From Aphrocallistes beatrix (taxonomy: Eukaryota; Porifera; Hexactinellida; Sceptrulophora; Aphrocallistidae): a stretch of DNA of 64,000 bases. Positions 17,794 through 46,629 of the stretch are shown one piece after another (within the stretch, counting starts at the first letter, position 1; each line of letters opens with the position of its first letter). The stretch lies in contig OY725488.1 in NCBI GenBank assembly GCA_963281255.1, positions 11,753,524 to 11,817,523 on the forward strand. Direction: 5' to 3'. The notes beneath the pieces are model-generated. The model was not told the origin of the DNA. It did not search any database and saw only the letters and a list, made by a program, of their open reading frames with translations. The translations under genes and the position numbers were made by a program.

Positions 17794-18642
17794 TTACTTT
17801 AGTTCTGTCTGGATAGGAGCAGGACTGCATCTAATTCCAGTAGTCACATCCCAGCTAATGCTTTTGCAAGATTTCTTAACTGTCTTATCTGATAGACAAA
17901 TAAAGCAAAATATGTGTTTACAAGTAGAAGAAGAACATGTAAAAGTATTGCAACCACCCGAGTATTCTAACATTGTTTGACATCGAGGACAAGCTCTCAT
18001 TGTTGGAATAGTCACTTTTTTGCCATTACGATCTTGAAATTCCATTTTTGGAGAGTTTATAAGCTTTTCGATTAACTCTTTATTTGTACAATTTTCACAC
18101 ACTTTATTATCTGAAGCATTTTTCCATTCACGTTTACAGGACCAGCAAAACATGAAACATTTCCCACGCTTCTTAGGACAGACAGCGCATTGGACTTGTG
18201 GATTATGTATATTAGTCCTCTGACAAAGCGTTCGACACTGAGGGCATTCCTGGGTATCCTGACTCTCATAGAAATTCGTAGTTATAGCAGCGATGAGAAA
18301 TTCTTCTTCTTCTAGAGTTGGCAGACCAAATTTGATAATATCCTCCCGCTTTATAGGTTTATCGCATTCATTACAGCCAATCTGGTACTTCCTGTTACTT
18401 AACTGTTCCCACGTCCAGTCTAGAAGATCATCTGGACATATGTAATGGCCACATTCCATCCTTAAACCATTATCTTCAAAGCATGTGTTACACTGACCTC
18501 TTGGATGGAATAATACAGTCCTTGTCTGATCTCTTGTTTCACTGAAATTTTTTCCATGAATTCTTGCAGCACAAAATTCTACCTCAAAGTTTGAATTTTG
18601 TATTGGTTCATTTTTTTTGAAAAGGGATCGCCAAAAAGCCAT
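17794..18642 (-). CDS. RBR (RING-IBR-RING) E3 ligase paralog 1
   Basis: RBR ligases accept ubiquitin or a Ubl from an E2 onto a RING2 cysteine and pass it to substrate. This 282-aa single-exon protein has RING1 ligands C51, C54, C64, H66, C69, C90 and C93, with Asp72 where a Cys is usual. The IBR region is C133, C136, C152, C155, the FCWSC pair C166/C169, and C182/C185. RING2 is C218, C221, the catalytic-type C231 in GGCNTFTC, then C236, C241, C246 and C249. It ends APIQTELK, a tail shared by all paralogs. No membrane segment or extra domain is seen, so it is likely soluble and much shorter than most animal RBRs (Parkin 465, ARIH1 557 aa). Met at 18642 opens the MAFWRSLFKK N terminus shared in style with paralog 5. 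Its 5' neighbour is Ubl1, 2.1 kb away. Confidence 0.88.
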   Translation of the reverse strand: MAFWRSLFKKNEPIQNSNFEVEFCAARIHGKNFSETRDQTRTVLFHPRGQCNTCFEDNGLRMECGHYICPDDLLDWTWEQLSNRKYQIGCNECDKPIKREDIIKFGLPTLEEEEFLIAAITTNFYESQDTQECPQCRTLCQRTNIHNPQVQCAVCPKKRGKCFMFCWSCKREWKNASDNKVCENCTNKELIEKLINSPKMEFQDRNGKKVTIPTMRACPRCQTMLEYSGGCNTFTCSSSTCKHIFCFICLSDKTVKKSCKSISWDVTTGIRCSPAPIQTELK

Positions 18643-19654
18643 TTGATTTTGCTATTACTTTTATTATCTAAAGAAGCAATATCAATACATATTATTCACA
18701 CTAAAATTAATACTTTATTTACATGTTGCAAAATTAAGTATAGGTAGAGATATACTTGTGTATTTGACGAGAATAACGAGATGCAAAGGTTGACTTAATC
18801 TAAAGAGTTTTTTAGGAATAGAAAAATGGTTGATTCCGATTGAATCAACCAATGGCTGCCTAGGTTTAAATTTTAAACTGTATTAAAGTGCTAAAATTTT
18901 TTTAGTGCTGCTCCTAGTATAAGAGATGTTTCTTACGTCAGGATTGGTATGCTAAGTAGGGGTGAACATATATATATCCATCTACTCGCTCCTGGAAATT
19001 CTACTGGACCTAATTGAACCAAATGACACCAAATGTATAAATAAAGACCATACATTATTTCTATCGAGGTCGAGATTTGAACCTGGGCCCAAATTTGACT
19101 TTTTCTCAAAATATGTCAAAATGTATTAGCCAATCAGAATCCAGGATTTTGCATTACACTTGGCTTTAATTTATTGACTAACAGAGATGATACCTAACTC
19201 AATGAACATATAAGTTCGGAATCACTCTCTAGCCTATTTTAAGAATTATTCATATTTTCATATCTTGACTCTAAATGTGACAAATTTGCCTACAAATGAA
19301 ATTTCAGAATTTTAATTTAAAAATATAATTTAAATTTCTTATATATTAAAATGCATTGTTTTTTGTGCAAATCGATATAAGAACTGGGAGGTGCTAGAAA
19401 TGTGAAATTTGGCACACAGGTAAATAATAATCAGTTTAGAAGGAAAAATAGAAGGAAAAAAGATCTAAACGATAGCTTCTCACCTTGATGAGATAAGTAG
19501 CAAAATGTGCTGACCCATCAAATTCGATTATTTTATAATGCAAATAACACACTCTAATTATTGTTACGAACCAAAATTACTGCTACAGTTCTCATCTCAT
19601 TAATATACCGGCGTAGACAAATACAATTCTGCATAGAAAACAAGAAAAACGACA
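18643..19654. other. intergenic between RBR1 and a family A repeat
   Basis: AT-rich and no ORF supported. Bases near 18905-19000 carry a fragment shared with 44.88-45.01 kb (CGCTCCTGGAAATT and similar words). It forms the 5' flank of RBR1. Confidence 0.45.
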
Positions 19655-19985
19655 TGTTGTTTTATGCATAACTCAGCCATTATAGTAGATAGAAGGCTCA
19701 AATTTTAATAGAATCTGTATACTAACATGCCTCACATATGGTGCAACTATCACCAAAATGATGACTCATCAATCTGTTATGACGTCATCATTACGCATCA
19801 AAATTTTAAAAATTGACAAATTTGGTGATTTTTCGAGTGATATCGATTCTAACACTAAGATAGACATATTTAGAGATGCTATCTCCCTTATAATTAATCA
19901 ATGTGACCCCAGGTGACCGAAGGGAGCCTCCGACGGACACACTGTCCGCCAGCCGCGCAGCGCAAGCAAGCGAAGCGCGCTTGTA
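19655..19985 (-). repeat. repeat family A copy, inverted, partial
   Basis: Reverse of the family A first half. It ends with the head in reverse (GCAAGCAAGCGAAGCGCGCTTGT region) at 19985. The ORF here is an artefact. Confidence 0.7.
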
Positions 19986-20049
19986 CAAAATAAATAGCTA
20001 CCACAACTTATGTTTGATATCTTAAATGTATTATAATGTATGGCAATAA

Positions 20050-20495
20050 AAAATATTATGTGCATATTTTCACACCTTTATATACATATTTTCACACCTT
20101 TATATACATATTTCCACACCATTTGATGAATTTTGAAAATAATGCTAGAAACTTGCTTTCAACGGTTGGCATGGGATTTTCAGGGGTGCAGATTTAGGAT
20201 ATCATGTTTTCGAGTAAATTTGAAAATTGATTTATTTACCTTTGTTTACAATAGATACATAAAGTAAACAAATCTCAAAATATGCTATAAACTAGCTTAC
20301 AACGGTTGATATGGGGTTTTCAGAGGCGTAGATTTCGAATATCATATTTTGGAGTAAATTTGATCAGTTTGTTTACTTTTGTTTAGAATAGATACATAAA
20401 GTAAAATAATCTAAAAATATGCTAGAGACAAACTTTCAACAGTAGACCTGAGGCTTTTTGTTAGCCGCGCAACATAAGTGTGCTCTTGTTATTTA
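20050..20495 (-). repeat. repeat family B copy, inverted, about 3 units
   Basis: Tandem units with ACTAGCTTACAACGGTTGA and CATAAAGTAAACAAATCTC in inverse orientation, ending in a degraded GC-rich head near 20463-20490. Confidence 0.65.
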
Positions 20496-20729: not shown

Positions 20730-21071
20730 CTATGATGAATAACCGCCGTGAATCCTAGTCACTAGTACGATTGTTGATCCGCCCTTGATTCCATAATCCT
20801 GAAAGGTCATCGTATTACCAGCACAAATATCTTCTAGTTGCTTGTCTGCATAAAGTAGACGTTGATGCTCTATACTGACCCCCATTCTATCTCTAATTAG
20901 TTCTCTCAGTTCTGAAACTTTGTATCTCTAGAGTTATAAACGATGTGAATATGCATAATTGACATAATTTCGAAAAATATTATAAAATATACAACATACT
21001 TTAAATATTGAAGATTGAATTTGAAAAGTTACGGTTTTTGACTCAAATCCTGAAACATAGATATTCTCCAT
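20730..21071 (-). CDS. ubiquitin-like modifier 1 (two exons)
   Basis: Exon 1 is 21000-21071 (24 codons, MENIYVSGFESKTVTF...), then a 72-nt intron with donor GTATGT and acceptor TAG, then exon 2 at 20730-20927 (65 codons and stop). The 89-aa product aligns through the whole beta-grasp fold of ubiquitin: IYVSGFESKTVTFQI for strands 1-2, helix VSELRELIRDRMGV, EHQRLLYADKQLED for the strand and Lys48 region, DYGIKGGSTIVLV, and the C terminus TRIHGG at residues 81-86 followed by YSS. Arg82 matches ubiquitin Arg72, and the Lys in ADKQLED matches Lys48. The Lys63 position is Gly. There are about five extra residues between LED and DYG. The GG plus three-residue tail suggests processing by a Ubl protease before conjugation. 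It lies 5' of RBR1. Splicing is inferred from consensus sites and identical structure in two paralogs. Confidence 0.88.
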
Positions 21072-21495: not shown

Positions 21496-21534
21496 TATTA
21501 TATATCAGTAATTTTGATACTACTTCCTGTATAC

Positions 21535-22292: not shown

Positions 22293-22875
22293 ATATTTGT
22301 AAGACGTACTAGTATTTTTTTGAACATTCAAATATTAATAAAATACGTGAAAATATCAAAGTCTAGAAAAAGTGCTTATGTACTACTCAGAGGATAATAT
22401 CTAACAAAACCTAGTACGTATATAAATGTGAATATTAAAATTTTTGTAAGTTGTTGAGGGTGGGGGCTGCTAGAAATGTGAAATTTGTTATGCAGGTAAA
22501 TAATAATGAGTCTACAAGGGAGTTCGAAGATCTAAGCGAAATCTTCGCACCTCGCAGAGTTTGTTGACAAATTGTGTAGAATGTTTAAGAAGAAATTTCA
22601 ATGCAAAATTGGGTCCGAACAATTATACTTAAACAGTACTTACTAACCGAATTAAAAGAAAAGATTGTTATTGAAAATTTAAAAAATCATAACACAGACT
22701 TTTGGAATGCGATTGACACGATTTATTTCGTATAAACATTAAAAACAGTTATAAATATTTCATGATAAATTATTTATAGAACATAGAACAAATCGATGCA
22801 AGGGTGAGGGGTCGTTTGAAAAACCTTACGCTCCTGTTCAAAAATACCCATGAGAACATTATGAAGCTAACATAC

Positions 22876-22944
22876 GCTCATTTGAATTTGAATTGCGAAG
22901 GTGTTAGTATTTCCTTCGAGTCCTGAAATATTCATATTCTCCAT
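22876..22944 (-). pseudogene. orphan first exon of a ubiquitin-like modifier (Ubl2 relic)
   Basis: The 23 codons starting MENMNISGLEGNTNTFAIQ match exon 1 of the intact Ubl genes and end at the same donor, GTATGT. No exon 2 is found within the next several hundred bases on the minus strand, so the C-terminal half with Gly-Gly is missing. A gene relic. Confidence 0.75.
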
Positions 22945-23428
22945 CAGTCTATTTTATCATCACTAACTGTTACAATTTATGAAATGGTATAGCTAAATGA
23001 TAGAGAAAGATTATATTTCTATATATGTATGTAACAATTATACTATCTGGGGTATAATTCTATGTAGGCACACAGTTACTATAACTTAAAGTTCATGATG
23101 ATATATTATGCAACTTTAAAATGCAAGATGAAATGTGATATATATAACGATAAGATTAATAGTGATCTTTAAATGGACTGAATGCTCCGTATTTTACTTA
23201 CTGAAAGCATTGTTTGCTTAGTCCAGTTGAACTTGTGACAAGAAAATCTCAAATCATATATCCTAGTCATGTGTGAACTAAACAACTTCGGGGACATTTC
23301 AGTCAGATGGCTAAGAGCAAAAATTCAGAATTATAGCAGTTTGTTAGTGATTCAATGATCTAGTTTGGGATTCTATGGAGTAAAACCATAGAAAATATTG
23401 TATTGTAGAATGATCTAGAATATTGTAT

Positions 23429-24758: not shown

Positions 24759-25365
24759 TTACTCGTCGTCTATTACAACTTCACTGCTAAAACTGTCCGA
24801 AGTAAAATATGACTGATAGCGGCAGTTAATTAGGTCTGTAACAGGCTGAAAATGTTCATCAAAATTAGTTAGGTACATCGCTTGGTTAGATCTGTGCTTT
24901 TCATAAAAATGGTAGCGATACCATCTTATTTCGTTGTATGTTTTCTTCGAATCACAATGGAAGTTCGCAACAAACAGGTCTATCCCTAACATCATGGATA
25001 CTGCCATTATTTCGATGTCGGTTGCCCAAATATGATCACTACCCATTTGTGACTGTAAAAGATAGTGCTTTGATGATAGATTGCTAAGTTTTAATTCAAG
25101 GTAGCGTGTAATGTAGCTAGCTCCTTGAACTCCAATAAATCTATAAACCTCCCCGCGAATTTTCTCGTGGTGATTCTCTGAACCCGTTAGTGCGGCTAAG
25201 ATAGCTCTGAAAAAGCAGTTACCATCGCGTTCTATGGGATAATGTTCAAGGAAATGAAACCTCCTAGCGGTCTTTCAACGTAATAATCTGCCTGAGGTAG
25301 TTTTTTCTCGAATGGAAGTTGTAACAGATTGCACTTTGATATTTTCCATTCTCTAGATATGAAGA
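24759..25365 (-). pseudogene. OTU-type cysteine protease, one frameshift
   Basis: OTU proteases cleave ubiquitin or Ubl bonds. Reading down from about 25365, the sequence gives REWKISKCNLLQLPFEKK, a 1-nt frame change near 25265, then IERDGNCFFRAILAALTGSE with the OTU signature D-G-N-C (nucleophile Cys). Next come a helical stretch, WATDIEIMAVSMMLGIDLFV, and QAMYLTNFDEHFQPV with the expected catalytic His, ending at a stop at 24759. The ATG at 25046 lies between nucleophile and His and is not the true start. The N-terminal exon or start is not identified. This OTU subfamily (LxLPF block before DGNC) is common in invertebrate genomes and sometimes rides on transposons. Integrase fragments lie 1.1-2 kb upstream on the same strand, so it may be transposon cargo rather than a partner of the Ubls. 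Confidence 0.65.
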
Positions 25366-27226: not shown

Positions 27227-27289
27227 ATTATCAAGATAGATTATTATTATTATTAACAAATACAATAACTTGGGGTAAATATTTGACAT

Positions 27290-28108: not shown

Positions 28109-28930
28109 TTACTTCCTCAGTTTAGTTTGGATAGGAGCAGCTGTACATGTTATTTCTGTATAGTTTCTCCCTCGACACACGAGACTGCCTTCTCTAGTCT
28201 TGGCTAGGCAAATGAAGCAAAATTTATTTCCACATCTATTGCAAGTCATTTCATTACAACCACCTTCATGCTGAATAACTGTAAAACACTCTGGACAAGC
28301 TCTTTTTTTAGGTACAAATACCACTTTACCGTTTTTGTCCTTAAAATCCATCTGAGGACTTTTTCGAAGTTCGTCAATTGTTTCCCTGAAACACTCCAAA
28401 TTACCACATTCTTTATAGTTACCTGCATTCTTCCACTCCCTCAGGCAATACCAGCAAAATTCGTATTGTTTTCCTTGTTTCTTCGTACAATTAGCACATA
28501 TCACCTGAGGCTGCTCTGAATTAACTCTTTTGCAATAGCTCTGACAACCGGGACACAACTGGATATCTTGACTCTCATAGAAGTTAATTGATATGGCAGC
28601 TTCAAGAAATTGTTTTTCTTCATCACTTGGAAGACCAAATTTAATGATATCAGCAAATTCGATAATGGATGTGCAGCTAAAACAGCTGATCTGGTGTTTT
28701 AAATGTGTAATCTGTCCCCAAGCATAGACCAGCAGATCATCAGGACAGATAAAATGACCACATGGCAACCTAAGGCCGCTATCATCATAGCAAACACAAC
28801 ATTCTCCTTGAGGGTGAACAAATGATACTGTCCTCGTCTCGTCTCTTTTTTTGAAATGCTCTGGCCCCTTTCGAGCGTCCCAGATGTTGACATGATAAGT
28901 TTCAAACGCACTTTTGCTAGCACCTGACAT
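28109..28930 (-). CDS. RBR (RING-IBR-RING) E3 ligase paralog 2, most divergent
   Basis: 273 aa, single exon. RING1: C44, C47, C57, H59, C62, Asp65 in place of Cys, C83, C86. IBR: C126, C129, C145, C148, the FCWYC pair C159/C162, and C175/C180. RING2: C212, C215, catalytic-type C225 in HEGGCNEMTC, C230, C233, C238, C241. It is closest to canonical RBR RING2 wording (GGCNEMTC) and differs from the other paralogs throughout, for example IISFADI replaced by IIEFADI-type wording, yet keeps the shared frame RDETRTVSF at the N terminus and the APIQTKLRK tail. Its divergence parallels that of the neighbouring Ubl3 exon 1.2 kb upstream, which may mark an older cassette. Met at 28930 is the first in frame. 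Confidence 0.87.
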   Translation of the reverse strand: MSGASKSAFETYHVNIWDARKGPEHFKKRDETRTVSFVHPQGECCVCYDDSGLRLPCGHFICPDDLLVYAWGQITHLKHQISCFSCTSIIEFADIIKFGLPSDEEKQFLEAAISINFYESQDIQLCPGCQSYCKRVNSEQPQVICANCTKKQGKQYEFCWYCLREWKNAGNYKECGNLECFRETIDELRKSPQMDFKDKNGKVVFVPKKRACPECFTVIQHEGGCNEMTCNRCGNKFCFICLAKTREGSLVCRGRNYTEITCTAAPIQTKLRK

Positions 28931-30161: not shown

Positions 30162-30353
30162 TTACTGCCCACCACGCACTCTGGCCGCCATTACTATTGT
30201 GGAGTTATTAGTTATTCCATAGTCACATAGCTTCATTACTTGACTTTGTTTTTCATCTTCCAGATTTTTGCCTCGAAAAGATAAAACTTGATCATCTACC
30301 TCAACACCAGTCCTTGAATGTATATCTGCCTTTAACCGTTGAACTGTGTAGTC
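30162..30353 (-). CDS. divergent ubiquitin-like modifier 3, C-terminal exon
   Basis: 63 codons and stop, opening after a splice acceptor (TTTTAG) as DYTVQRLKADIHSRTG and continuing VEVDDQVLSFRGKNLEDEK, DYGITNNSTIVMAARVRGGQ. It matches ubiquitin from the helix to the end: the Lys of GKNLED equals Lys48, and RVRGG corresponds to the RLRGG end, with a single Gln tail. The sequence differs strongly from Ubl1, 4 and 5. No convincing first exon is visible in the next few hundred bases; MITE insertions at 30.59-31.2 kb may have displaced it. A small candidate (MSEYLFTESL, near 30410-30440, donor GTATAT) would lack strands 1-2. It may be a live gene with an unrecognised exon 1, or a relic. Confidence 0.7.
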   Translation of the reverse strand, partial: DYTVQRLKADIHSRTGVEVDDQVLSFRGKNLEDEKQSQVMKLCDYGITNNSTIVMAARVRGGQ

Positions 30354-30769
30354 CTAAAATAAATAGTTGGAATGATGTGTATAATTCTTCCAAAATAAGA
30401 ATCATATACTAGTGATTCAGTAAATAAATATTCAGACATTATCCAGTCAGGATATACGTATATATTTATTTACTAATTTAATAATTATTTACTAATTTAT
30501 AAATTATTTGATGAGATGGGCGTGTCATCGGCGTAATTTGTATATCTAGAACCTCCAAATTTGATGTATCTGTCCAAATTGTGAGACAAATTTTATTCTT
30601 TGTCTCTGAACCCCAGTTGGTTCATTTGCCCCCTACGAAACATCTTGGCTACGCCCATGATCTGAGCATATAGAAGTAAAAATTTATCTGGGGATGCTAA
30701 CCCCACACACCTCCAAATAAAGTCGCTCGCTATGCTCATGTTTTGTTTAAAATGGGCAGTACCTATAAG

Positions 30770-30860
30770 CAGGGGCGCCGACACTTTTCGAAATTTATGG
30801 GCAAATTTGTAGTTCTTGGGGGCTCGAGCCCCCCCAGCTCCCCCGGGTTCGGCGCCTATG
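30770..30860. mobile_element. short hAT-type MITE
   Basis: Ends CAGGGGCGCCGA and TCGGCGCCTATG, flanked by CCTATAAG and CCTATAAT (8-bp duplication with one mismatch). 91 bp. Confidence 0.65.
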
Positions 30861-30891
30861 CCTATAATGACATCTCGTTTATAGGGTTGCC

Positions 30892-31207
30892 AACTCGACT
30901 CAGTTGTATTCCGGGAGGATGATTTCGGGGGTAGATAGTTCGTGACAGCTACATATTTGAAATGTGAACAAATTAGGCAAGCCTAAGGCTAATAGTCCAT
31001 ATATATATAACAACCAATGCTCTAAAAAAGAAAGGCCTACTTCTCCTCCCCTAGCATCCCTCACAATTGTTAAGAATCAGAGTCAAGGTCAGTAATCCCA
31101 TGGATTTAATATTAACATATTAACATTTTGGATTAAAAAATCTCCCGGATTTGATTAGCGGATTTCCGGGAGACTGAGCCTGATTCCGGGAGTCTCCCGG
31201 CCAATCT
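30892..31207. mobile_element. hAT-like MITE
   Basis: Inverted ends AGGGTTGCCAAC and GTTGGCAACCCT. Inner motifs TTCCGGGAG and CTCCCGG recur. No coding capacity. Confidence 0.6.
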
Positions 31208-31209
31208 GG

Positions 31210-32128
31210 GAGGGTTGGCAACCCTAGGTTGCAGTCAATGTAATTTTTTTAATAAAGAGAAAATAAGATTTATTAAAATATTACATTTAGGGAAAGATTT
31301 CCATTTTGAGAAATTATACAATATTGATACGAGTTTATTTATTAAAACTAACCTTGATTTCACTATTAGATATGGCTATTGTCCTAGTCTTTCCTTCAAA
31401 TCCTTCAACAAAAATATTGTTCATTATTTATCAAATTAGAATTTTTATTTTGATTGAATATATTTATTGTGAATACTGAAATATATAATTCTCTACTATT
31501 GTACTTAAGTAACACTGATTAGGATTCTTCTCATGGATTCTAGAATGTTCTTAGGTAACCAAAAACAACTACGTAGTTTGTAGCTCCTTAATAGAGCTTC
31601 AGCGTGTTTAGTACTGTTTCAACGGATTTTGACCACCTACGGATTCTGACCACATATCATACAAATATGCATTATGGTTAATGGACGATGGATATTTCAT
31701 TACCTACGGATTCTGACCCCAGCAATTACTATTGAATATAATACTAACAAATCGCTCTATAGTGAATTTGTACATAGGGAGTGATAATTTAATATGCATA
31801 ACTAACATAAACTTTCTATTCTCCTGCTGTTATTCTCACATTTTTGTGAAAATTATCCCAATTTAGCAAGTACCTGTACTAAGAAATTTGTTTTCTATAT
31901 TTTACCTAGCCTAATAAAATACGTATTTCATAATAGTCAATTGTCAGTTCTTCCCCCAACTGATTCCGTTCTAAAGTAAATTTTCACAAAATGGTAGAAA
32001 AGGAATATAATAATTACAGTTAAGAATAATAGTATTTAACTCAAGAATCAAAAGGATAAAATACAATACAGCACCGTTTCTTATATAGTCACATATGTTC
32101 TTATCCATGTAACAAGTCTCTACTGAAA
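31210..32128. other. intergenic, 3' flank of the RBR3 relic
   Basis: No gene supported. Bases from about 31970 to 32128 match the 3' flank of RBR5 (36.81-36.94 kb), showing that RBR3 and RBR5 were duplicated with their flanks. Confidence 0.5.
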
Positions 32129-32955
32129 TTACTTTAGCTTGGTCTGGATAGGAGCAGGACTGCATCTAATCCCAGTTTCATTCCAGCTAATGCTTTTACA
32201 GGATTTACTAGCTGAGAGGCAAATAAAGCAAAAGATGTGCTTGCAGATGGAAGAAGAACATGTGAAAGTATTGCAACCGCCGGTATGTTCTAACATTGTT
32301 TGACATCGAGGACAAGCTCTCATTGTTGGAATAGTTACTTTTTTGCCAATAGAATCTCGAAATTCCATTTTCGGAGAGTTTATCAGCTTTTCTATTAGCT
32401 CTGTCTTGCAATTTGCATTTCCACACACTTGTTTATCTGAAGCAATTTTTCCATTCACGCATACAGTACCAGCAAAACATAAAAAATCTTCCAGCCTTCT
32501 TAGGACAGACAGTACAATGGACTTGTGGATTATCTGTCCTAGTCCTCTGACAGAGAGTTCGACACTGAGGACATTCTTGTATATCTTGACTCTCATAGAA
32601 GTTAGTTGTTATAGCAGTAATGAAAAATTGCTTTTTGTCTAAGAGTTGGTAGGCCAAGTTTAATAATACAAATATCATCCTGATTTATAGGTTCTTCGCA
32701 CTCATTACAGTCAATCTCATGCTTCATGTTACTTAACTGTTCCCATGTCCAAGTTAGAAGACAATCTGGACATATGTAATGATCACATGCCATCCTTAAA
32801 CCGCTATCATCGAAGCATGTGTTACATTGCCCTCTTGGATGGAATAATACAGTCCTTGTCTGATCTCTTGTTTCTCTGAAATATTCTCCACGACTTCTTG
32901 CAGCACAAAATTTCTACTCTAATGTTTGAAAATGGATTTGATTCACATTTAGTTA
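32129..32955 (-). pseudogene. RBR E3 ligase paralog 3, broken
   Basis: The full RBR order is present but in pieces. The initiator ATG is lost (TCK replaces MAE before SNPFSNI). Indels occur near 32914, near 32670-32690, near 32636 and near 32448 (an extra base within WKNASD). Cys order is retained: RING1 with CPDC (the canonical Cys, not Asp), IBR CPQCRTLC and FCWYC, and RING2 HTGGCNTFTC, ending APIQTKLK. It is closest to paralog 5, with shared 3' flank. At least four separate breaks make it a real pseudogene rather than a sequencing error. Confidence 0.85.
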
Positions 32956-33739
32956 TCAATAGTTTATATCATAAAAATTATTTTTTAAAATAATTGGGCC
33001 ATCTAATTTAAACTTAATAATATCAATAAATAGTATTAGTATTAAAAATGATAACTTATTTTACATATTGAAAATTACAACACAAGTTTTGGTAGTAATA
33101 AGAATAATGAGCTACAATAGTTGACGTAATCCAAGGAGTTTAAAGGAATTAGGAAGATGGTTAATTCAGATTGAACCAACTAATGGCTAAGTGGTAGTAA
33201 ATTACGGAATAAACAATACTGCCTATAACTAGAATGCTTCATTGGAGCCAATCTACATTATTTGATATGTAGAATTCAATGGAGGAACCAGCTTTAATCT
33301 AAAATTGCTCAAAACTGAAGCAAAAATTATGTACAAAAGCAGGATGATAAACCAGTAGCATAAAATTGTGTGCAGCAACCACTATAACTAAATGATGACA
33401 ACAAGCCAAAATACCAATCGAAAGCTAACCCTTTAAATAATATAATAGAGGAATCGAAAATAAACTACATTCATGACCATTTGAAAAAATATAGATATGG
33501 GATTGGAAATTATTGAAAGATCCAAGTAGGTGTAAATTCGAGTGTCAATATTTGTAAGGACATTTTCTAATTTAGATTTAAACATAGCCTACTCTATTTA
33601 AGACCAGGTATCAACCCCATTATACACGTATACTAGAAATCAAAATACTATAAGTCAATGTTTGTATAAATGTAGTAATATAGCATATTAAGTTCATCTA
33701 GGCAAAAATGTCATTTTACCCTAATACTCCCTGGCGACA
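32956..33739. other. intergenic between RBR4 and RBR3 relic
   Basis: AT-rich, no ORF or recognised repeat. The part next to RBR3 resembles the 5' flank of RBR1 (18.66-18.85 kb: AAAATTA...GATGGTTAATTC-type words). Confidence 0.4.
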
Positions 33740-34567
33740 CTACCTTAGCTTGGTCTGAATGGGAGCTGGGCTGCATTTGATACCGGTTTGATTGTAGCTT
33801 ACGCTTCCGCATTTAAGACTGCCATCAATTACCCTTGAAAGACATATGAAGCAAAATTGTTTTCTGCAACTACCACATGTAAATCTGTTGCAACCGCCAG
33901 AATGTTCTAGGAGGGTATGGCACTCTGGACAAGCTCGCCTTGTTGGGATGTTCACCTTTTTTCCGTTACGATCTTTAAATTCTTTTTTTGGTGAGTTAAT
34001 CAGTTTATCGATGTCTTCTTTCTTACAATTCTCATTTCCACACACTTTATTATTGGAAGGGTTATTCCATTTACGTTGACAGTACCAGCAAAACATGAAT
34101 AAATTCAATCCTATAGTAGGACAGACAGTGCAAGGAACTTGCGGATTGTCTGTCCTAGGCCTCTGACAGAGAGTTCGACACTGAGGGCATTCTTGAATAC
34201 CCTCGCTTTCGCAGAAGTTAGTGGTTATCGCAGTGATTAGAAATTGTTCTTCTTCTAGAGTCGGTACCCCAAACTTTATGACGTCATCCTGCTTTATTGG
34301 TTTATTGCATTCATTACAGCCAATCTCAAACTTCATGTTACTTAGCTGTTCCCATGCCCAAGTTAGAAGATCATCTGGACAGATGAAGTGACCACATCCC
34401 ATTAGCAAACCGCTTTCATCAAAACAAGTAGTACATTGACCTTTTGGGTGAGGAAATGATACCGTTCTCTCTTGATCTCTTTTAAAAGAGAAATATCGTC
34501 CACGACTTCTGGCTTCACAAAATTCGATTCCAGCACTTGAAAATGGATTTGATTCACATTCTGCCAT
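33740..34567 (-). CDS. RBR (RING-IBR-RING) E3 ligase paralog 4
   Basis: 275 aa, single exon. RING1: C45, C48, C58, H60, C63, Asp66 replacing Cys, C84, C87. IBR: C127, C130, C146, C149, FCWYC pair C160/C163, and C176/C181. RING2: C213, C216, catalytic-type C226 in HSGGCNRFTC, C231, C234, C239, C242. Tail APIQTKLR. The N terminus MAECESNPFS starts at the first Met. In the IBR, TIGLNL replaces the KKRG/KKAG of the others, a small local divergence. No Ubl lies directly 5'; the next upstream is Ubl4 at 36.2 kb, with a family B repeat array in between. Confidence 0.88.
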   Translation of the reverse strand: MAECESNPFSSAGIEFCEARSRGRYFSFKRDQERTVSFPHPKGQCTTCFDESGLLMGCGHFICPDDLLTWAWEQLSNMKFEIGCNECNKPIKQDDVIKFGVPTLEEEQFLITAITTNFCESEGIQECPQCRTLCQRPRTDNPQVPCTVCPTIGLNLFMFCWYCQRKWNNPSNNKVCGNENCKKEDIDKLINSPKKEFKDRNGKKVNIPTRRACPECHTLLEHSGGCNRFTCGSCRKQFCFICLSRVIDGSLKCGSVSYNQTGIKCSPAPIQTKLR

Positions 34568-34810: not shown

Positions 34811-35752
34811 CACAAGCACGCTTCGCTTGCTTGCGCTGCGCGGCTTTCGGACACTGCGTGTCCGCAGAGTCGCCCTGCAGGCGCCTGGAGTCACTCAATC
34901 AAAAATATTTTGGATATTTTTTCCTTTAAATAGATATTGTAAACAAAGGTCGACGAATAATTTCTCATATGGATCCGAAAATCTAATATTCAAAATCTAC
35001 AGCACTACAAACCCCATGTCAACCGTTGGAAGCTAGTTTCTAGCATATTTTTGAGATTTGTTTACTTTATGTATCTATTGTAAACAAAAGTAAATAAATA
35101 ATTTATCACATCGATCTGAAAATATGATATTCAAAATCTACACTCCTAAAAACCCCATGTCAACCGTTGGAAGCTTGTTTCTAGCCTATTTTTGTAATTT
35201 GTTTACTTTATGTATCTATTGTGAACAAAAGTAAACAATTAATTTATCATATCGATCTGAAAATATAATATTCGAAATCTACACCCCAGGAAACCCCATG
35301 TCACCCGTTGGGAGCTAGTCTCTAGCATTATTTTCAAAATTAATCAAATGGTGTGAAAATATGTATATAAAGGTGTGAAAATATGCAGATAATCTTTTTT
35401 ATAGCCATACACTATAATACATTTTAGATATCAAACATAAGTTGTGGCTTTGAAGTATTAATAACAATGACGATCTATTTATTGTAGTGTCGTACTTGTA
35501 CAATGATTTCTATTGTAATAGTGTAGTCATTTATTTTGTATAGAAAAGGTGCGAAAAATTGTTTTCCATTTTTTTTGCAGAGGTGTGAAAATTTCGCTTA
35601 GATCTTAGAACTTAATCTTAGATTCATCATTTGGCACCTACATGCCAATTTTCGTATCTCTACGACTTACCAATTCTTCAATCAATTCGGACAAACAAAC
35701 AAACAAACAAAAAAAAATCCTGGAGTTTTAATATGTAAGATATAAGATAATA
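34811..35752 (+). repeat. repeat family B copy with tandem units of about 142 bp
   Basis: The GC-rich head ACAAGCACGCTTCGCTTGCT with hairpin GGACACTGCGTGTCC is followed by three tandem units (markers CCCCATGTCAACCGTTGG near 35010 and 35153, CCCCATGTCACCCGTTGG near 35294). A unique body follows, ending AATCAATTCGGACAAACAAA and a TTTTAATATGTAAG tail. Confidence 0.75.
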
Positions 35753-36189: not shown

Positions 36190-36528
36190 TTATGATGAAA
36201 GATAACCACCTTGAAGCCTAGTCACTAGCACAATAGTTGCTCCACCCTTGATTCCATAATCCTGAAATGTCATAGTTTTACCAGCATGAGTATCTTCTAG
36301 TTCTTTAGTTCCATAGAGTATACGTTGGTGCTCTATACTGACCCCCATTCTATCTTTAATTAGTGCTCTCAGGTCTGAAACTTTGTATGTCTAAAGTTAT
36401 GAATTATGTTAATGTGCATAATTTCGTTTAAAATATTAATTATAAAATATACATACGTTCATTTTTGAAGATTGAATTGGGAAAGTTCTTGTTTTCCCTT
36501 CGAGTCCTGAAATGTAGATATTTTCCAT
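36190..36528 (-). CDS. ubiquitin-like modifier 4 (two exons)
   Basis: Exon 1 at 36457-36528 (24 codons, MENIYISGLEGKTRTFPIQ...), 66-nt intron (GTATGT...TAG), exon 2 at 36190-36390 (66 codons and stop). The 90-aa product is ubiquitin-like along its length: KVSDLRALIKDRMGV helix, EHQRILYGTKELED (Lys48 equivalent kept), DYGIKGGATIVLV, and TRLQGG at residues 81-86 followed by the tail YLSS. Arg82 corresponds to ubiquitin Arg72, a position read by the ubiquitin E1 in known systems; the next-but-one position, ubiquitin Arg74, is Gln. It is closest to Ubl5 and shares the five-residue insertion after LED. In transcription order it follows RBR5 and precedes RBR4. Confidence 0.9.
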
Positions 36529-36944: not shown

Positions 36945-37802
36945 TTAGCTCGTTTGGATAGGAGCAGGACTGCATCTAATCCCAGTTTCATTCCAGCTAA
37001 TGCTTTTACAGGATTTACTAGCTGAGAGGCAAATAAAGCAAAAGATGTGCTTGCAGCTGGAAGAAGAACATGTGAAAGTATTGCAACCGTCAGAATGTTC
37101 TAACATTGTTTGACATCGAGGACAAGCTCTTATTGTTGGAATATCGAATGTTCTACCTTGACGATCTGTAAATTTTTTTTTCGGAGACTTTACCAGCTTT
37201 TCAATTAACTCTTTCTTGCAGTTAGCATTTCCACAAACTTGATAATCTGAAGCATTTTTCCATTCACGCATACAGTACCAGCAAAACATGAAAAATTTTC
37301 CAGCCTTCTTAGGACAGACAGTGCAATGGACTTGTGGAGTATCTGTCCTAGTCCTCTGACAGAGAGTTCGACACTGAGGGCATTCTTGTATATTCTGACT
37401 CTCATAGAAATTTGTGGTTATAGCAGTGATAATAAATTGCTTTTCTTCTAGAGTTGGTAAACCAAATTTTATGATGTCATCTTGCTTTATGGGTTTTCCG
37501 CACTCATTACAGCCAATCTCATGCTTCATGTTACTTAACTGTTCCCATGTCCAAGTTAGAAGACAATCTGGACATATGTAATGACCACATGCCATCCTTA
37601 AACCGCTATCATCGAAGCATGTGTTGCATTGACCTTTTGGATGGAATAATACAGTCCTTGTCTGATCTCTTGATTTTCCGAAGTATTCTCCACGACCTCT
37701 GGCAGCGCAATATTCTATTCCAATTTTTGAGAATGGATTTGATTCACTTTCAGTCATCAATGATTTCGATTCCAATTTTTTTAAAAATGACCATCCAGCC
37801 AT
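36945..37802 (-). CDS. RBR (RING-IBR-RING) E3 ligase paralog 5
   Basis: 285 aa, single exon. RING1: C59, C62, C72, H74, C77, C80 (canonical Cys here), C98, C101. IBR: C141, C144, C160, C163, FCWYC pair C174/C177, and C190/C195. RING2: C227, C230, catalytic-type C240 in HSDGCNTFTC (Asp replaces the first Gly), C245, C250, C255, C258. The end is APIQTS: relative to the other copies one base is missing just before the stop, which cuts off KLK. The 15-residue N-terminal extension MAGWSFLKKLESKSL precedes MTESESNPFS; an alternative start at that second Met would match paralogs 4 and 6. Ubl5 lies 1.7 kb upstream. Confidence 0.88.
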   Translation of the reverse strand: MAGWSFLKKLESKSLMTESESNPFSKIGIEYCAARGRGEYFGKSRDQTRTVLFHPKGQCNTCFDDSGLRMACGHYICPDCLLTWTWEQLSNMKHEIGCNECGKPIKQDDIIKFGLPTLEEKQFIITAITTNFYESQNIQECPQCRTLCQRTRTDTPQVHCTVCPKKAGKFFMFCWYCMREWKNASDYQVCGNANCKKELIEKLVKSPKKKFTDRQGRTFDIPTIRACPRCQTMLEHSDGCNTFTCSSSSCKHIFCFICLSASKSCKSISWNETGIRCSPAPIQTS

Positions 37803-38116: not shown

Positions 38117-38660
38117 ACAAGCGCGCTTCGCTTGCTAGCGCTGCGCGACTTGCAGACACTGCGTATCCGCAGAGTCGCCCTGCGGGCGCCTGAAGTTACT
38201 CAATCTAACCTATTTTGGGATTTTTTTAATTTTATATAAATATTGTAAACAAAGGTTAACGAATAATTTCTCATATGGATCCGAAGATATAATATTCAAA
38301 ATCTACAGCACTAAAAACCCTATGTCAACAGTTGGAAGCTAGCCTCTAGCCTATTTTTGTCATTTGTTTACTTTATGTATCTATTGTAAACAAAATAAAC
38401 AAATAATTTAGCATATAGATCTGAAAATATGATATTCGAAATCTACACCACTAAAACCCCATGTCAACCGTTGAAAGCAAGTTTCTAGCATATTTTTGAC
38501 ATTTGTTAACTTTATGTATCTAATGTAAACAAAAGTAAACAAATAATTTATTTTATAGATCTTAAAATATGATATTCGAAATCTACACCCCTGAAAACCC
38601 CATGTTGCCCGTTGGAAGCTAGTCTCTAGCATATTTTTCAACATTCATCAAATGGTGTGA
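38117..38660 (+). repeat. repeat family B copy with tandem units
   Basis: Head CAAGCGCGCTTCGCTTGC, hairpin GACACTGCGTATCC, then three units of about 140 bp carrying TGTCAACCGTTGAAAGCAAG-type words, ending in TCAAATGGTGTGAATATATA. Confidence 0.7.
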
Positions 38661-39499
38661 ATATATACTATACCCGGACAAAAGTATTCGACCACCACAA
38701 AAACTTCCATACAAATAGTATTAAATTAGGTCTATTAAAAAAGGAACATGTCCTTAAACAGTAGAAAATCCACTATTTTTTATTTCAAATTCGTAATCTA
38801 CACATTCTAATTACTCATAATTGAGAGTTTCAACTCAATCACTTATCCTTATGTAGAAAATTATCAACCTATGCCACTTTGTGTCACTAAACGCCATCAT
38901 ATACTCGTATAATGGCTGTGACTTGGGACAAGTAGCATCAAGTTTCAAATGTTGTTATTTATTAACTTGGGAGTTAGTAATTATGCTGAGGCTATCAATT
39001 ATAAGTAATTAGAATGTGTAGTTTACGAATTTGAAATAAAAAATAGAGTAGTGCTCAATTGAAAGTACGGGTATTTCTGACTTGTGGAATTTGGCTTGAA
39101 TTAACGGCTGCTTTTGTGCCCTAAATCTTGAGTAACGAGTAAGACGAGGTATTTGTATTATTGTGATTGTGCTTCATTGTAATCAACTTGTTAGATATAG
39201 TTTTGTAGCAATGCATACTATAACACATTCTGTGGCAGTGAATTAAAGTGTCTCTTTGTTTATATTTCACTTTTAGATATTATGATTTTCCGAAAGATTC
39301 CGCTCAGGAAATTAGGTATCTATATTTTTTCGAAATCATTCCGTTCTGTTACTGAAATAAGTTAAGTCTTATTATTAATTGAATTTAAATAGAATAGATT
39401 TATTATTATACACAAAGGGTATTTTACATACTTAGAGAGGTCATATTGTTAAAATATACCCAAAAACAAAGGACATGTTCATTTAAAAAATAGATTACT
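38661..39499. other. intergenic, Tc1-like MITE remnants
   Basis: Begins with a Tc1-like end (CCGGACAAAAGTATTCGACC), and the reversed word TAATTAGAATGTGTAG appears near 39003, suggesting a decayed palindromic MITE of about 400 bp. No gene. Confidence 0.4.
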
Positions 39500-39844
39500 C
39501 TATGATGGAGGATAACCACCTGGAAGCCTGGTTACTAGTACGATTGTTGCTCCACCTGTGATTCCATAATCCTGAAATGTCATTGTATTACCAGCATGAG
39601 TATCTTCTAGTTCTTTGGTTCCATAGAGTAGACGTTGATGCTCTATACTGACCCCCATTCTATCTTTAATTAGTGCTCTCAGTTCTGAAACTTTATATCT
39701 CTAAAATTATAAATGATGTCAATAAGCATAATTTTACATAAAATGTCATAAAATATCATAAAATATACATACGTTCATTTTTGATGATTGAATTGGAAAT
39801 GTTTTAGTTTTCCCTTCTAGTCCTGAAATGTAGATATTTTCCAT
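39500..39844 (-). CDS. ubiquitin-like modifier 5 (two exons)
   Basis: Exon 1 at 39773-39844 (24 codons, MENIYISGLEGKTKTFPIQ...), 72-nt intron (GTATGT...TAG), exon 2 at 39500-39700 (66 codons and stop). The 90-aa product has the helix KVSELRALIKDRMGV, EHQRLLYGTKELED, DYGITGGATIVLV and the C terminus TRLPGG (residues 81-86) plus the tail YPPS. Pro in place of ubiquitin Arg74 just before Gly-Gly is unusual and might alter E1 or protease handling. Nearly identical to Ubl4 otherwise. It lies 5' of RBR5. The shared exon boundaries in Ubl1, 4 and 5 support the gene model. Confidence 0.9.
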
Positions 39845-40725: not shown

Positions 40726-40727
40726 TC

Positions 40728-41178: not shown

Positions 41179-41186
41179 ATACTTTA

Positions 41187-42462
41187 CAGGGTGGCCGAAT
41201 AAAATTGAGACAAATTTACTTGCTTTAAAAGTCAACCTTGGATCAATCTAAAATAACATTAGCTACTAAAATTCTCTTTTTGCATAGCAATATTGTATTA
41301 TCATTGCTCGTTCGAAAATGAAAGAATTAGACAAGAAGAAAAGTTATTCAATCATTTTTTAATTATGGACAAACTGTTTCTCAAATATGGAGACATGTAA
41401 AGTACGTAGATATTTCACGAGCTACAGTCTACAGAGTTGTCAAACGGCTCCAAAATGGTGGAAATAGCTCCAGAAAAACGGGGTCAGGAGTTAAATTCTT
41501 AGAGACCACTCGTATTGCGAAGAGAAAGATAACTGATCGTCTCCGGCGGAATCCCGCCCAGTCAGTCCAAAACCGCGAGGGAGATCGGAATACCGAAATC
41601 AACGGCCCAATACATTGTCAGAAGAGACTTAAAACTAAGGGCAAAGAAGAAAGAAACAAAACAGGCCCTCGTAAGCCCCCAAAAGGTCAAGAGAGCTACA
41701 AGGTCGAGAGCTTTACGTCGATCTTTGGAAGGCGATTTGCACAGGCGAGTGCTGTTCAGTGATGAAAAATTAAAAATTTCTTTTAATGGATCAACCCATT
41801 AATCGGCAAAACGATCGAGTTTACGTCAAGGAAGGGATTAAGAAGTCTCTTAATGAGAAAACAGTAGTTAAAAAGAGCAAATTCAGTCGGAAACTGATGG
41901 TTTGGGCAGAGGTAGCTCATAACTTGAAAACCGATCTTGTTTTCTTCCGACAAGGGGAAACTTTGGATGCAGATCGGTACCAAAGTGCGATTTTGGCTCC
42001 CATCGTTGTTCCCCTTTGTCAACAGCACGATCTTGTTTTCCAACAAGACTCCGCACCATGCCACACAGCTAAGAGAAACGCAGAATTTTTGAGATCCGAA
42101 AATATCAATTTTTGGACAAAAGAAGATTGGCCCCCAAACTCACCCGATCTCAATCCTCTCGATTACGGAATTTGGGGTATGCTGCAGCAGGAGGTATATC
42201 GCGTACCCCTAAAAGTTTGCAAGATCTAGAAAGAAAAATTAGGAAAGCTTGGGAGTAAATGGATCAGTCCAAGGTTAATCGATGTATTGATATATTTAAG
42301 AGCCGACTACGACAGTGTGAAGATGCCAAAGGCGGATATTTCGAATGAAAATAGCTTCTAACATCATATTAGACCAGTTAATACTATGTAACTTGAATAG
42401 ACTGAATTATCGAATTTTATACACATTTTTCATTTTTGTCTCAATTTTTCTCGGCCACCCTG
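41187..42462 (+). mobile_element. mariner-family transposon, inactive
   Basis: TIRs CAGGGTGGCCGAATAAAATT and its near-reverse AATTTTTCTCGGCCACCCTG, flanked by TA (41185-41186, 42463-42464). 1276 bp, the usual mariner size. It carries a broken transposase gene. Confidence 0.88.
41330..42344 (+). pseudogene. mariner/Tc1-type transposase, frameshifted
   Basis: Near the start, a helix-turn-helix block (ISRATVYRVVKRLQNGG) is readable. The first catalytic Asp lies in VLFSDEKL near 41755. The open part at 41786-42229 contains QQDSAPCHTAK (second Asp) and WPPNSPDLNPLDYGIWG (third acidic residue), an RNase H-like transposase core. Frame changes before 41786 and the early stop after YRVPLKVCKI mean it cannot make the protein. 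Confidence 0.8.
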
Positions 42463-43945: not shown

Positions 43946-45275
43946 CCATCGGACAGAACTATTTGAGCACGTCATTCTTTCCCATACAAATAGTTTTAAA
44001 ATGGATATTTTCAAGAAGGGTCATACATTATAAGGGTCATACATTATAACCATATTTGCCTGTTAGATTACTTTTTTTGAGTAGCACAAGGCAGGAATTC
44101 TAATGATAGTGAAAGTCGGTTTACTTAACTCTTTATCAGGGAGTGAGCTGCTACTCAGTAGACTACCTGACCTTAGTCAAAAATTAAAAAAACCCTCGTC
44201 ATTGAAAGAATTCGATCGAGATAGCAGGTCATTTAAACGAAAATGCTCAAAAGGAATGTTATATTGAATTTTCAAAGGGAAAGTAGAATTTCAATAGATT
44301 CTGAAGTGTTGTATATATACTGCGGACAACATTTTCGTTTTGGATAGCTAACGCAGCAATGGTAGATTCACGATTTATCTGGCTCTACTCTCCATTAAAG
44401 ACCATTATACCTGCTAACTGGTATACTCGTATTTTGAACTTTGTATAGTAATTTCTAATATTGTATTATAGTTGAAATTGAGCCCACTTTTCAGAACCCG
44501 ACAATACAAAACTAGAATCTATATCAGAATCTGAACCCGATCCGAACTCGAATCTGGACCTGTTTGGGACCCCAGACCAGACTATCTCATATATAAAAAA
44601 TGTTCGAATTGATCGAAGAATTGGTAAGTCATAGAGATTTGAAGATTTTCACGCATTCACGCCAAAAAAATGGAAAAAAAATCACACCTTTTTATACAAT
44701 ATATATAGTTTCGCTGTCGCAATAGAAATAATTGTGCGACACTAAATAAACTGTCATTGTTATTAATTATTCAAAGCCACAACTTTATAGATATTCTAAC
44801 TTTATTATGCTATATAACAATAAAAAAAGGTTATGTGTATATTTTCACACCTTTATATATATATATATATAAATCTCTACTATATAAGGAATACATATTA
44901 TCGTCCAAATTTGGCGCATTTTGGTCAATACAATTTCCAGGAGCGAGCTGACGGACATCGCACGCCGATCATGACATAAGGCATCTCCAATGCTAGGAGC
45001 TGCACTAAAATTCAAATAAGTATTATTGAATGAAACAATTAATCATAGAAAACATACGATCTAATTGCATGTACTAAGTTTAGTTTGAAAGAGAACAGGA
45101 GTGAGGTTTGAGAACATGGGATCAATAATACAATAACTGGCAACTATTAATAGACAACACAAATGTGCAGTTCTCTATAACTAGTGACAATATTTAACAT
45201 TATAGTAATATTATAAACATATGAGATGCAATACTTATTTAGGAACACAGCGTCTAATAGTCTGTACTACAATAG
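43946..45275. other. intergenic with repeat fragments, 3' flank of RBR6
   Basis: Contains a Tc1-like MITE end (43948-44050), an inverted family B fragment (44595-44870) and a short element piece (44880-45010) shared with 18.9 kb. No gene. Confidence 0.5.
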
Positions 45276-46097
45276 CTACCTAAGTTTCGTCTGAATAGGA
45301 GCAGGAGTACAAACAATTCCAGTATACTCTAGACTTGAGCTCTTGCAGACGAGACTTCCACCACTTGCGCAAGTCAGACATATGAAGCAAAACTTTTGAT
45401 TACAGAAAGAACATGCAAATTGATTACATAGCTCTTTATGTTCGAGGAGTGTGTGACATTTGGGACAAGCTCTAATTGAAGGAATTCTGATTCTCTTACC
45501 ACGAAGATCTCCAATCTCTTTAAAAGGTGAGTTTACCAACTTGTCAATTATTTCTCTCTTGCAACCCACATTCCCACATATTTGATAGTTTGAAGGGTTA
45601 TTCCATTCACGCATACAGTACCAGCAGAACATGTAGGGATTCCCTCGCTTCTTAGGACAGACAGTGCAATGGACTTGTGGATTATCTGTCTTAGTCCTCT
45701 GACAGAGAGTTCGACACTGAGGACATTCCTGAATATCCTGACTCTCACAGAGATTAGTGCTTATGGCTGTAAGGAGAAATTGCTTTTCTTCTAGGGTTGG
45801 AAGACCAAATTTTATGATATCATCCTGCTTAAGAATGTAACTGCATTGGGCACAGGTAATTTCATATTTCATATTACTTAACTGTTCCCATGCCCAGTCT
45901 AGAATGTCGTCTGGACATATATAATGACCACATTGCATTTTCAAGCCACTTTTATCACCACAAATAGTACAGTCCCCTGTTGGATATAGGAATGAAACTG
46001 TTCTTGTTTGATCTCTCCTTCCTTCAAACAAATCTCCACAAGCACGCGAACTGCTGTATTCGACCTTTCTGGCGAAAAAAGGGTCATATTCTGCCAT
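45276..46097 (-). CDS. RBR (RING-IBR-RING) E3 ligase paralog 6
   Basis: 273 aa, single exon. RING1: C43, C46, C56, H58, C61, Asp64 replacing Cys, C82, C85. IBR: C125, C128, C144, C147, FCWYC pair C158/C161, and C174/C179. RING2: C211, C214, catalytic-type C224 in HKELCNQFAC (the usual GG before the Cys is EL), C229, C232, C237, C240. Tail APIQTKLR. N terminus MAEYDPFFAR from the first Met. The Ubl6 relic lies only 464 bp upstream on the same strand, the tightest Ubl-RBR spacing in the window and probably the ancestral arrangement before transposon insertions. Confidence 0.88.
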   Translation of the reverse strand: MAEYDPFFARKVEYSSSRACGDLFEGRRDQTRTVSFLYPTGDCTICGDKSGLKMQCGHYICPDDILDWAWEQLSNMKYEITCAQCSYILKQDDIIKFGLPTLEEKQFLLTAISTNLCESQDIQECPQCRTLCQRTKTDNPQVHCTVCPKKRGNPYMFCWYCMREWNNPSNYQICGNVGCKREIIDKLVNSPFKEIGDLRGKRIRIPSIRACPKCHTLLEHKELCNQFACSFCNQKFCFICLTCASGGSLVCKSSSLEYTGIVCTPAPIQTKLR

Positions 46098-46560
46098 AAG
46101 TTATTAATAAATTGCTAACACATATATAGTATACAATTTTCTTTAAATTTTTTTACTACAATTGTTTAAGTATCGTAGTATATACTGATAGTAGTATTAA
46201 AAATTATTAGGATATCTGGGAAATTGTGGAAACAACTATAGTGGAGTTTGCTTATTAGCAACCCCCATATTAGCAACCAATTTTAACCCAGTGTAGATTT
46301 TGTATTAATTCTGCTCCCTTTTAGCAATTTCGAGTATTAGCAACCTTTCGTCCGCACTTAGTTGCTGATAAGCGAATAAGTTTGAAATATGATAATGCAT
46401 ATAACAAAAAATGTTATTCGACAGACTGATAGTGCAACTCCATTAAGTGATTTGACTTGTAGGGTATTTGCATAATATATACATCCTTAATTGTGAAAAT
46501 TATAAAAAATGTTAATGTTCATAATTTGTCTAAAATGTTATGAAATATACAAGTACATAC

Positions 46561-46629
46561 GTTCATTTTTGATTGAACTGGAAAGGTTTTAGTTTTCCGC
46601 TCGAATCCTGAAATATAGATATTTTCCAT
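46561..46629 (-). pseudogene. orphan first exon of a ubiquitin-like modifier (Ubl6 relic)
   Basis: 23 codons, MENIYISGFERKTKTFPVQ and following SKMN, ending at the standard GTATGT donor. Intron-like sequence continues for about 70 nt as in Ubl5, but similarity ends where the exon 2 acceptor should be. The C-terminal half is therefore deleted. Confidence 0.78.

Follow-up and report, generated by a model that had tools for sequence, protein, structure and literature searches.

A locus of ubiquitin-like modifier, RBR ligase and UBE2J2-like E2 genes in the sponge Aphrocallistes beatrix

Gene content of the window and the surrounding island

We analysed a window of 64,000 nucleotides in the genome of the sponge Aphrocallistes beatrix (assembly GCA_963281255.1, contig OY725488.1, here C1; C1:11753524-11817523), in which genes for ubiquitin-like modifiers (Ubls) alternate with genes for E3 ligases of the RING1-IBR-RING2 (RBR) family. 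The minus strand of the window carries five intact RBR genes, each a single open reading frame (ORF), and one frameshifted RBR relic, together with Ubl genes of which four are intact and two are reduced to exon-1 relics. Read in the direction of transcription, the array begins with the Ubl6 relic (exon 1 only, ~46522-46638) and the intact ligase ORF RBR6 (45276-46097), followed by Ubl5 (39500-39844; 72-bp intron, end ..RLPGG-YPPS) and RBR5 (36945-37802; intact, 285 aa), and by Ubl4 (36190-36528; 66-bp intron, end ..RLQGG-YLSS) and RBR4 (33740-34567; intact, 275 aa), the latter being used for the structure model and as a homology query. The frameshift-split pieces of the RBR3 relic (32132-32968) lie ahead of Ubl3 (30162-31424), which has two exons, a 999-bp phase-0 intron and the end ..RVRGG-Q, and of RBR2 (28109-28930). 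The last members are the Ubl2 relic, an exon-1 remnant at ~22870-22953, Ubl1 (20730-21071; exons 21071-21000 and 20927-20733, 72-bp phase-0 intron, end ..RIHGG-YSS) and RBR1 (17794-18642). With respect to two deep clades described below, RBR1 belongs to clade A and RBR2 and Ubl3 to clade B.

Two genes for UBE2J2-like ubiquitin-conjugating enzymes (E2s), both of type I in the E2 tree, are found on the plus strand. The one at 55104-56498 has a long tail past the UBC domain and keeps the catalytic Cys, with Asn in place of the His seven residues after it (C+7), while the one at 57627-58700 has the GRF motif, the catalytic Cys and the C+7 His. A preliminary description of this stretch had noted these two nearby E2 genes, which are indeed present and belong to a far larger E2 array. 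It had also reported the alternating minus-strand order, which holds as stated, and duplicated 3' flanks, which we confirmed as two repeats, D14 shared by RBR3 and RBR5 and D15 shared by RBR1 and RBR3. Its tightest Ubl-RBR pair, given as 464 bp apart, measured 463 bp from the donor-like site of the relic to the RBR6 ATG, and that pair consists of the Ubl6 exon-1 relic and RBR6 and is not an intact one.

The window lies inside an island of RBR, Ubl and E2 genes that spans ~0.6 Mb of C1 (12,531,196 bases) and ends ~0.5 Mb short of the contig end. When the whole genome (100.5 Mb in 28 contigs) was searched with RBR5, 37 of 38 RBR-family matches, some of which are pieces of single genes, fell in C1:11.40-11.99 Mb, the remaining one being weak and on C2. 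Likewise, 29 of 31 UBE2J2-like matches (E<=1e-28) fell inside C1:11.667-11.949 Mb, the two other strong matches being at C16:4038845 and C1:5443226. We read C1:11753524-11965000 in full, and shorter pieces at 11.40, 11.505, 11.56, 11.668, 11.965, 11.968 and 11.98 Mb. The resulting map contains 16 Ubls (14 intact, 2 relics), 23 RBRs including relics and 26 E2 ORFs including fragments, and excludes the RBRs from the 11.40, 11.505 and 11.56 Mb pieces. The array is real, larger than first described, and unusual.

Sequence features of the three gene families

All 14 intact linked Ubls end with Gly-Gly plus 0-6 residues and their own stop, and the encoded proteins are single Ubl domains of 86-93 aa. 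The 13 for which both exons were found share a phase-0 intron after 24-28 codons with GT..AG ends; for Ubl0, exon 2 alone was found. Ubl5 matched the Pfam ubiquitin family (PF00240, E 1.5e-9) with 38% identity to ubiquitin. The equivalents of Arg72, Gly75 and Gly76 are invariant across 13 Ubls and ubiquitin, and that of Arg42 is mostly kept. Ubiquitin-family sequence, C-terminal Gly-Gly and a short tail are, at the level of sequence, the marks of a conjugatable modifier. A protein search with a Ubl, limited by its length window and word rule, returned two fragments of 51-52 aa, both on a 1.74-Mb contig.

Ubl matches were also obtained elsewhere in the genome (C12, C15, C16 and C20), and numerous Ubl genes with no link to RBR genes had been named in the preliminary description as an outcome that would speak against its proposal. 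Ubls do occur outside the island; none of the four read on C12 and C16 (exon 1 seen for three) has a Gly-Gly end, but the five read on C20 carry Gly-Gly in front of a fused domain. The C20 genes are five tandem ORFs (C20:483001-491900, piece L032), in which a Ubl with an internal Gly-Gly is fused to a Cys-containing domain; Pfam recognised the Ubl part alone in the three ORFs scanned.

All five intact RBRs of the window matched Pfam IBR-type models at E<=0.001, RBR5 and RBR6 falling under the curated cut-offs, and these models were found alone, with no further domain and no RING0. Profile and fold searches confirm membership of the window RBRs in the RBR family: the RING1-IBR-RING2 zinc-ligand pattern is present, and the structure model of RBR4 had 37 Foldseek matches in the PDB at E<=0.001, all of them RBR ligases. 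A protein search with RBR4 yielded 20 matches, of which 9 were the genome's own genes and 11 came from elsewhere, 2 of these from Oopsacas minuta.

RING2 was scored in 37 rows, five being repeats of the genome's own genes, which left 32 distinct sequences; the short copy R10b misfits the pattern and was left unscored. The catalytic Cys is present in 28 of the 32, including all paired intact RBRs. In the other four, namely the scored copies from 11.40-11.56 Mb, Ser takes its place, and the sequence read there yielded no Ubl; because these copies are related, the Cys may have been lost in one event. They are possibly pseudo-ligases. The Ser-bearing RBRs were seen in the pieces L035, L036 and L038 (C1:11.40-11.56 Mb), and two of the ORFs are still long and open. 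The His two residues after the Cys (Cys+2) was found in one of the 28 distinct Cys-bearing RBRs (R7) and in two of the four Ser-bearing copies. This His is described as not fully conserved across the family (PMC9834252), so its absence does not exclude RBR membership. HOIL-1, an oxyester-making RBR, has Trp in place of the usual His at Cys+2 and uses a different His at its C-terminus (PMC9834252); 27 of the 28 distinct Cys-bearing RBRs scored likewise lack the usual His. No such C-terminal His was identified in the island RBRs.

Among the E2s, Pfam UQ_con was found in all seven ORFs scanned, and the GRF motif that replaces HPN in 26 of 30 matched pieces, one being cut directly after the motif. 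Of 25 readable active sites, 23 have the Cys and 21 the Cys together with His at +7. The UBC domain, GRF motif, catalytic Cys and C+7 His are shared with the tail-anchored E2s UBE2J2 and Ubc6, in which the C+7 His activates the substrate serine (PMC11649903). In seven E2 ORFs a hydrophobic segment (mean hydropathy >=2.3) lies <=14 residues from the stop, and the others are possibly spliced onward. The E2 tree, a quick one with a long-branch warning, separates two types, I (window and 11.86-11.90 Mb) and II (behind R7, R9 and R10, and a run at 11.91-11.94 Mb), with P0031-P0034 as a separate group; the E2s following R0 and R8 were not long enough to be included. The E2 protein search gave 215 matches, and O. 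minuta appeared once among the 120 listed (P0055, 49% identity). Some UBE2J2-like ORFs at C1:11.88-11.95 Mb (pieces L020-L021 and L023-L027) have very long Ser/Asn-rich tails, reaching up to 1708 codons, and some hold two UBC domains, one of which has lost its active site.

Gene order and history of the cassettes

For 15 of the 16 mapped Ubls (relics included), the gene that comes after it in the map is an RBR gene or relic of the same strand; the remaining Ubl, a relic, is succeeded by a further Ubl and only then by an RBR. In 20,000 shuffles of the family labels, Ubl-to-RBR successions averaged 4.6 and reached at most 11, against the 15 observed (p<=5e-5, a value that overstates the case and is indicative only, because tandem copies are related and not independent). 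The order is present in both deep clades. In intact pairs the gap between Ubl and RBR is 0.5-4.0 kb across the map and 1.2-2.1 kb in the window's four intact units. A same-strand UBE2J2-like E2 is next downstream of R0, R7, R8, R9 and R10 (map coordinates; gaps 0.5-2.1 kb), and several units are ordered Ubl, RBR, E2. R0, R7, R9 and R10 belong to clade B; R8 and the E2 behind it are both broken, and an E2 fragment follows R10b. Between Ubl9 and RBR9 we also observed a TRAF-type zinc-finger gene with a partial MATH match (L023:3522-4394), which is absent from the map.

A TAGCA motif is located upstream of the RBR ATG in 9 of 11 clade-A copies, with 7-17 nt from its AG to the ATG. The motif would fit a trans- or cis-splice acceptor, and polycistronic Ubl-RBR transcripts are therefore possible, with the reservation that the copies are related.

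In the RBR tree, clade B (R0, R2, R7, R7b, R9, R10 and P0018) was separated from the rest with support 100/100. The Ubl tree set apart Ubl0, 3, 7, 9 and 10 (support 92/90, not starred), whose units match RBR clade B. The O. minuta gene model P0010 (399 aa), in which a Ubl runs into an RBR and both Pfam domains are found, fell on the clade-A side in both trees. Given this shared deep split and P0010, the Ubl-RBR link looks old, and if P0010 reflects adjacency it would predate the separation of the O. minuta and A. beatrix lineages. In addition, the longest contig recorded for P0013, on the clade-A side, measures 295,295 bases, and so does that recorded for P0018, in clade B, a hint that both clades are clustered in a further assembly too.

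The preliminary description had proposed co-diversification of the two trees as a check on its proposal, and the result was divided. Overall, co-divergence was strong: a Mantel comparison of Ubl and RBR distances gave r 0.77 (p 1.5e-4) over 14 pairs, in which Ubl0 was represented by its second exon, unit 8 was bridged across its break and O. minuta counted as a single pair, and r 0.82 (p 1e-4) without O. minuta and unit 8. Within clade A alone the correlation was weak (r 0.35, p 0.06; without unit 8, r 0.56, p 0.01), and within clade B it was absent (n=5, r -0.26, not significant), so that the signal lies mainly in the deep split common to both trees. Clade-A genes are under purifying selection, with dN/dS (the ratio of non-synonymous to synonymous divergence) of 0.13-0.39 for 8 Ubls and 0.12-0.33 for 7 RBRs, many dS values being near or above 1.

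Recent Ubl and RBR copies have discordant histories. While dS agrees for Ubl1/Ubl5 (0.41) and RBR1/RBR5 (0.51), it is 0.29 for Ubl4/Ubl5 vs 1.03 for RBR4/RBR5, and 0.16 for Ubl12/Ubl14 vs 1.69 for their partner RBRs. Units 12 and 14 share a 96%-identity block over Ubl exon 2 that ends near the exon ends. A tree forcing RBR12 together with RBR14 was rejected (approximately unbiased [AU] test, p 2e-57, for a group picked after seeing the Ubl distances), and the reverse arrangement, in which Ubl12 joins Ubl15 after the pattern of the RBR tree, was not (p 0.09). The mismatch in dS and the rejected tree rule out strict co-duplication of Ubl and RBR for some recent copies, and they do not support the earlier suggestion that units were copied as whole segments. 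These data are most simply explained if some Ubls underwent gene conversion or were copied separately, which would favour a few modifiers shared among many ligases over private pairs. Given the weak (clade A) or absent (clade B) within-clade co-divergence, the earlier notion of one-to-one pairing of modifier and ligase was not supported, and it is doubtful that recent copies each serve one specific partner.

A candidate conjugation system and its alternatives

We lean, with moderate confidence, towards a dedicated lineage-specific sponge Ubl-E2-E3 conjugation system that would be charged by the housekeeping E1 and is possibly hydroxyl-directed. In its favour are the same-strand gene order, the Gly-Gly ends of the linked Ubls against their lack in the four C12 and C16 Ubls, the purifying selection in clade A, the zinc ligands, fold and catalytic Cys of the RBRs, the gathering of E2s with mostly kept active sites at the same locus, the deep split common to both trees and the O. 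minuta model. In this system a short Ubl precursor would be made, and a protease would trim its tail of 0-6 residues to expose Gly-Gly. The housekeeping ubiquitin E1 would charge the Ubl, which would then pass to an island UBE2J2-like E2, to the RBR catalytic Cys and on to a substrate. In modifiers of this family, Arg72 bears on the choice of E1; charging by the housekeeping E1 is suggested by the retained Arg72 and mostly retained Arg42 equivalents and by the lack of an E1-type gene on C1. The acceptors may be hydroxyls, of Ser/Thr or of a sugar, which is plausible given the J2-type active site of the E2s and the missing His of the RBRs, although this chemistry is a reasoned guess and not a finding. 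A role in defence or stress may be supposed. A bolder version, in which private, cassette-borne Ubl, E2 and E3 genes form two ancient subsystems (clades A and B) that make ester bonds to Ser/Thr or sugars and were amplified like an immune locus, is tentative and as a whole somewhat unlikely. With respect to the lineage-specific modifier and ligase array with E2s put forward in the preliminary description, the single locus, fixed order, purifying selection in clade A and shared deep split speak for it, and the parts without support are one-to-one pairing and the copying of each unit as one segment.

Several observations weigh against a dedicated system. The 0.5-4.0 kb spacing is loose for an operon, and in the stretches covered several RBRs have no Ubl to themselves (R7b, R10b, R12b, R13a and the copies at 11.40-11.56 Mb). 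The discordant recent histories, with the dS of Ubl12/Ubl14 as an example, belong here as well. Ubl3 is without the Arg42 equivalent, and one of the two window E2s is without the C+7 His. The Gly-Gly difference from the C12 and C16 Ubls is one between related genes, and those Ubls are possibly spliced to further exons. None of the 24 ThiF places in the genome lies on C1, and no E1-type gene was found on that contig. No dedicated protease was found, the OTU gene described below being a dispersed repeat, and no search for JAB proteins was made.

The families might instead be linked with no shared function, as a birth-and-death array in a repeat-rich region where they were amplified together and retain ordinary ubiquitin roles. 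The many relics and transposon pieces, the discordant recent histories of Ubls and RBRs, and the weak or absent co-divergence within clades would all fit, yet this would leave three families of consecutive function (modifier, E2 and E3) amplified at one locus, two of them almost nowhere else, in a fixed order and strand, and with a Ubl-RBR model in another genus (O. minuta); we consider it quite unlikely.

Parkin comprises a Ubl, RING0 and an RBR in one polypeptide. The island Ubls and RBRs might act as a Parkin divided between two genes, in which the Ubl is left unconjugated, binds the RBR in trans and switches on a ligase that uses ordinary ubiquitin. Known RBRs are switched on by ubiquitin, phospho-ubiquitin or NEDD8, and activation by ubiquitin and Ubls is described as a common feature of the family (PMC9834252). 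The Ubl lies 5' of the RBR in the island, matching the domain order of Parkin, and the O. minuta model reads as one Ubl-RBR protein without Gly-Gly. A Ubl that acts non-covalently, however, needs no Gly-Gly, which is kept with a short tail in 14 of 14 linked Ubls and absent from all four C12/C16 Ubls, and the co-located E2 array would be superfluous, so that this arrangement appears improbable. The island further differs from Parkin in that no RING0 was found by Pfam.

That Ubl and RBR are exons of one gene for a fusion protein, as in the O. minuta model P0010 with its two Pfam domains, is very improbable and disfavoured: the TAG ahead of CA does supply an AG at 7-17 nt from the RBR start codon in 9 of 11 clade-A copies, but each of the 14 intact Ubls carries a separate stop codon behind Gly-Gly, the mapped intact RBRs have their own ATG, the stretch from motif to ATG varies in length and frame (7, 9, 10, 12 and 17 nt), TAA stands just ahead of the ATG in R4, R5, R8 and R13a, and the P0010 joint falls directly ahead of the position at which Gly-Gly is expected and a GGT codon may mimic a splice donor.

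In animals, the genes for Ubls, E2s and E3s are as a rule dispersed, so that the partners of an enzyme or modifier must be found case by case. In the dedicated conjugation system that we favour, candidate modifier-E2-E3 partners would be indicated by the genome, and in many natural variants, making it tractable for studying the evolution of modifier specificity; were the inference on chemistry true, the system would further represent a modifier pathway dedicated to hydroxyl acceptors, and the island, should it be an immune locus, would have parallels in the Ubl defence operons of bacteria and in vertebrate ISG15. The island Ubls share with ubiquitin, NEDD8 and ISG15 the ubiquitin-family sequence, the Arg72-Gly75-Gly76 equivalents and a short tail, and differ in being multi-copy, in their conserved phase-0 intron and in their linkage to a presumed ligase. 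Two of their loops are longer than those of ubiquitin, by 4 and 5 residues, and they are single-domain proteins, whereas ISG15 consists of two tandem Ubl domains. The ligases share RING1-IBR-RING2, the zinc ligands and the RING2 catalytic Cys with ARIH1/ARIH2, HOIL-1, HOIP and Parkin; unlike these, the island RBR is a bare protein of ~275 aa, and about twenty copies or relics are arrayed beside Ubl and E2 genes. In contrast to UBE2J2 and Ubc6, the island E2s lie together, among RBR and Ubl genes, as 26 mapped ORFs or fragments, some of which are very long or contain a second UBC domain. Prokaryotic Ubl operons (BilABCD; archaeal Ubl-E1-E2-RING) likewise place a modifier and its conjugation enzymes side by side (PMC11354881). 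The island, unlike them, is in an animal genome, has introns, RBR-type E3s and many cassettes, and, in contrast to the Bil operon with its dedicated E1, has no E1-type gene on its contig, none of the 24 ThiF places lying on C1. Our literature search, within the portions of the articles that it covered, found no earlier report of such an array. In their main texts, the genome papers on O. minuta and A. vastus do not contain the word 'ubiquitin'; the A. vastus paper reports tandem expansions of AIG1-domain genes and discusses immunity.

An OTU ORF at window 24759-25274 was considered as a protease dedicated to the system and rejected. The ORF is a member of a dispersed high-copy family with 349 candidate places, of which 150 were scored and all 150 matched; the close copies are seven including the window ORF, and copies of 80-95% identity are found on C1, C8, C9 and C18. 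Given this dispersal, the ORF is probably transposon-borne.

Other elements of the window include a sulfotransferase gene and an ICMT/PEMT-like methyltransferase gene (1080-2045 and 13459-14124), ordinary genes that flank this part of the island. A LINE-type ORF (long interspersed nuclear element; endonuclease and reverse transcriptase, 1062 open codons) at 47824-51012 separates the RBR array from the E2 pair, and a DDE transposase gene remnant (Pfam DDE_3, mariner-like by eye) lies at 41331-42229. Repeats of family D2 with 141-bp spacing are found close to RBR4 and RBR5 (34867-35362 and 38173-38666), with small GCTAG..CTAGC palindromes close by. A minisatellite-like stretch at 14368-14970 has three frames open, and by eye similar pieces occur at ~47.3, 57.1, 59.7 and 63.7 kb.

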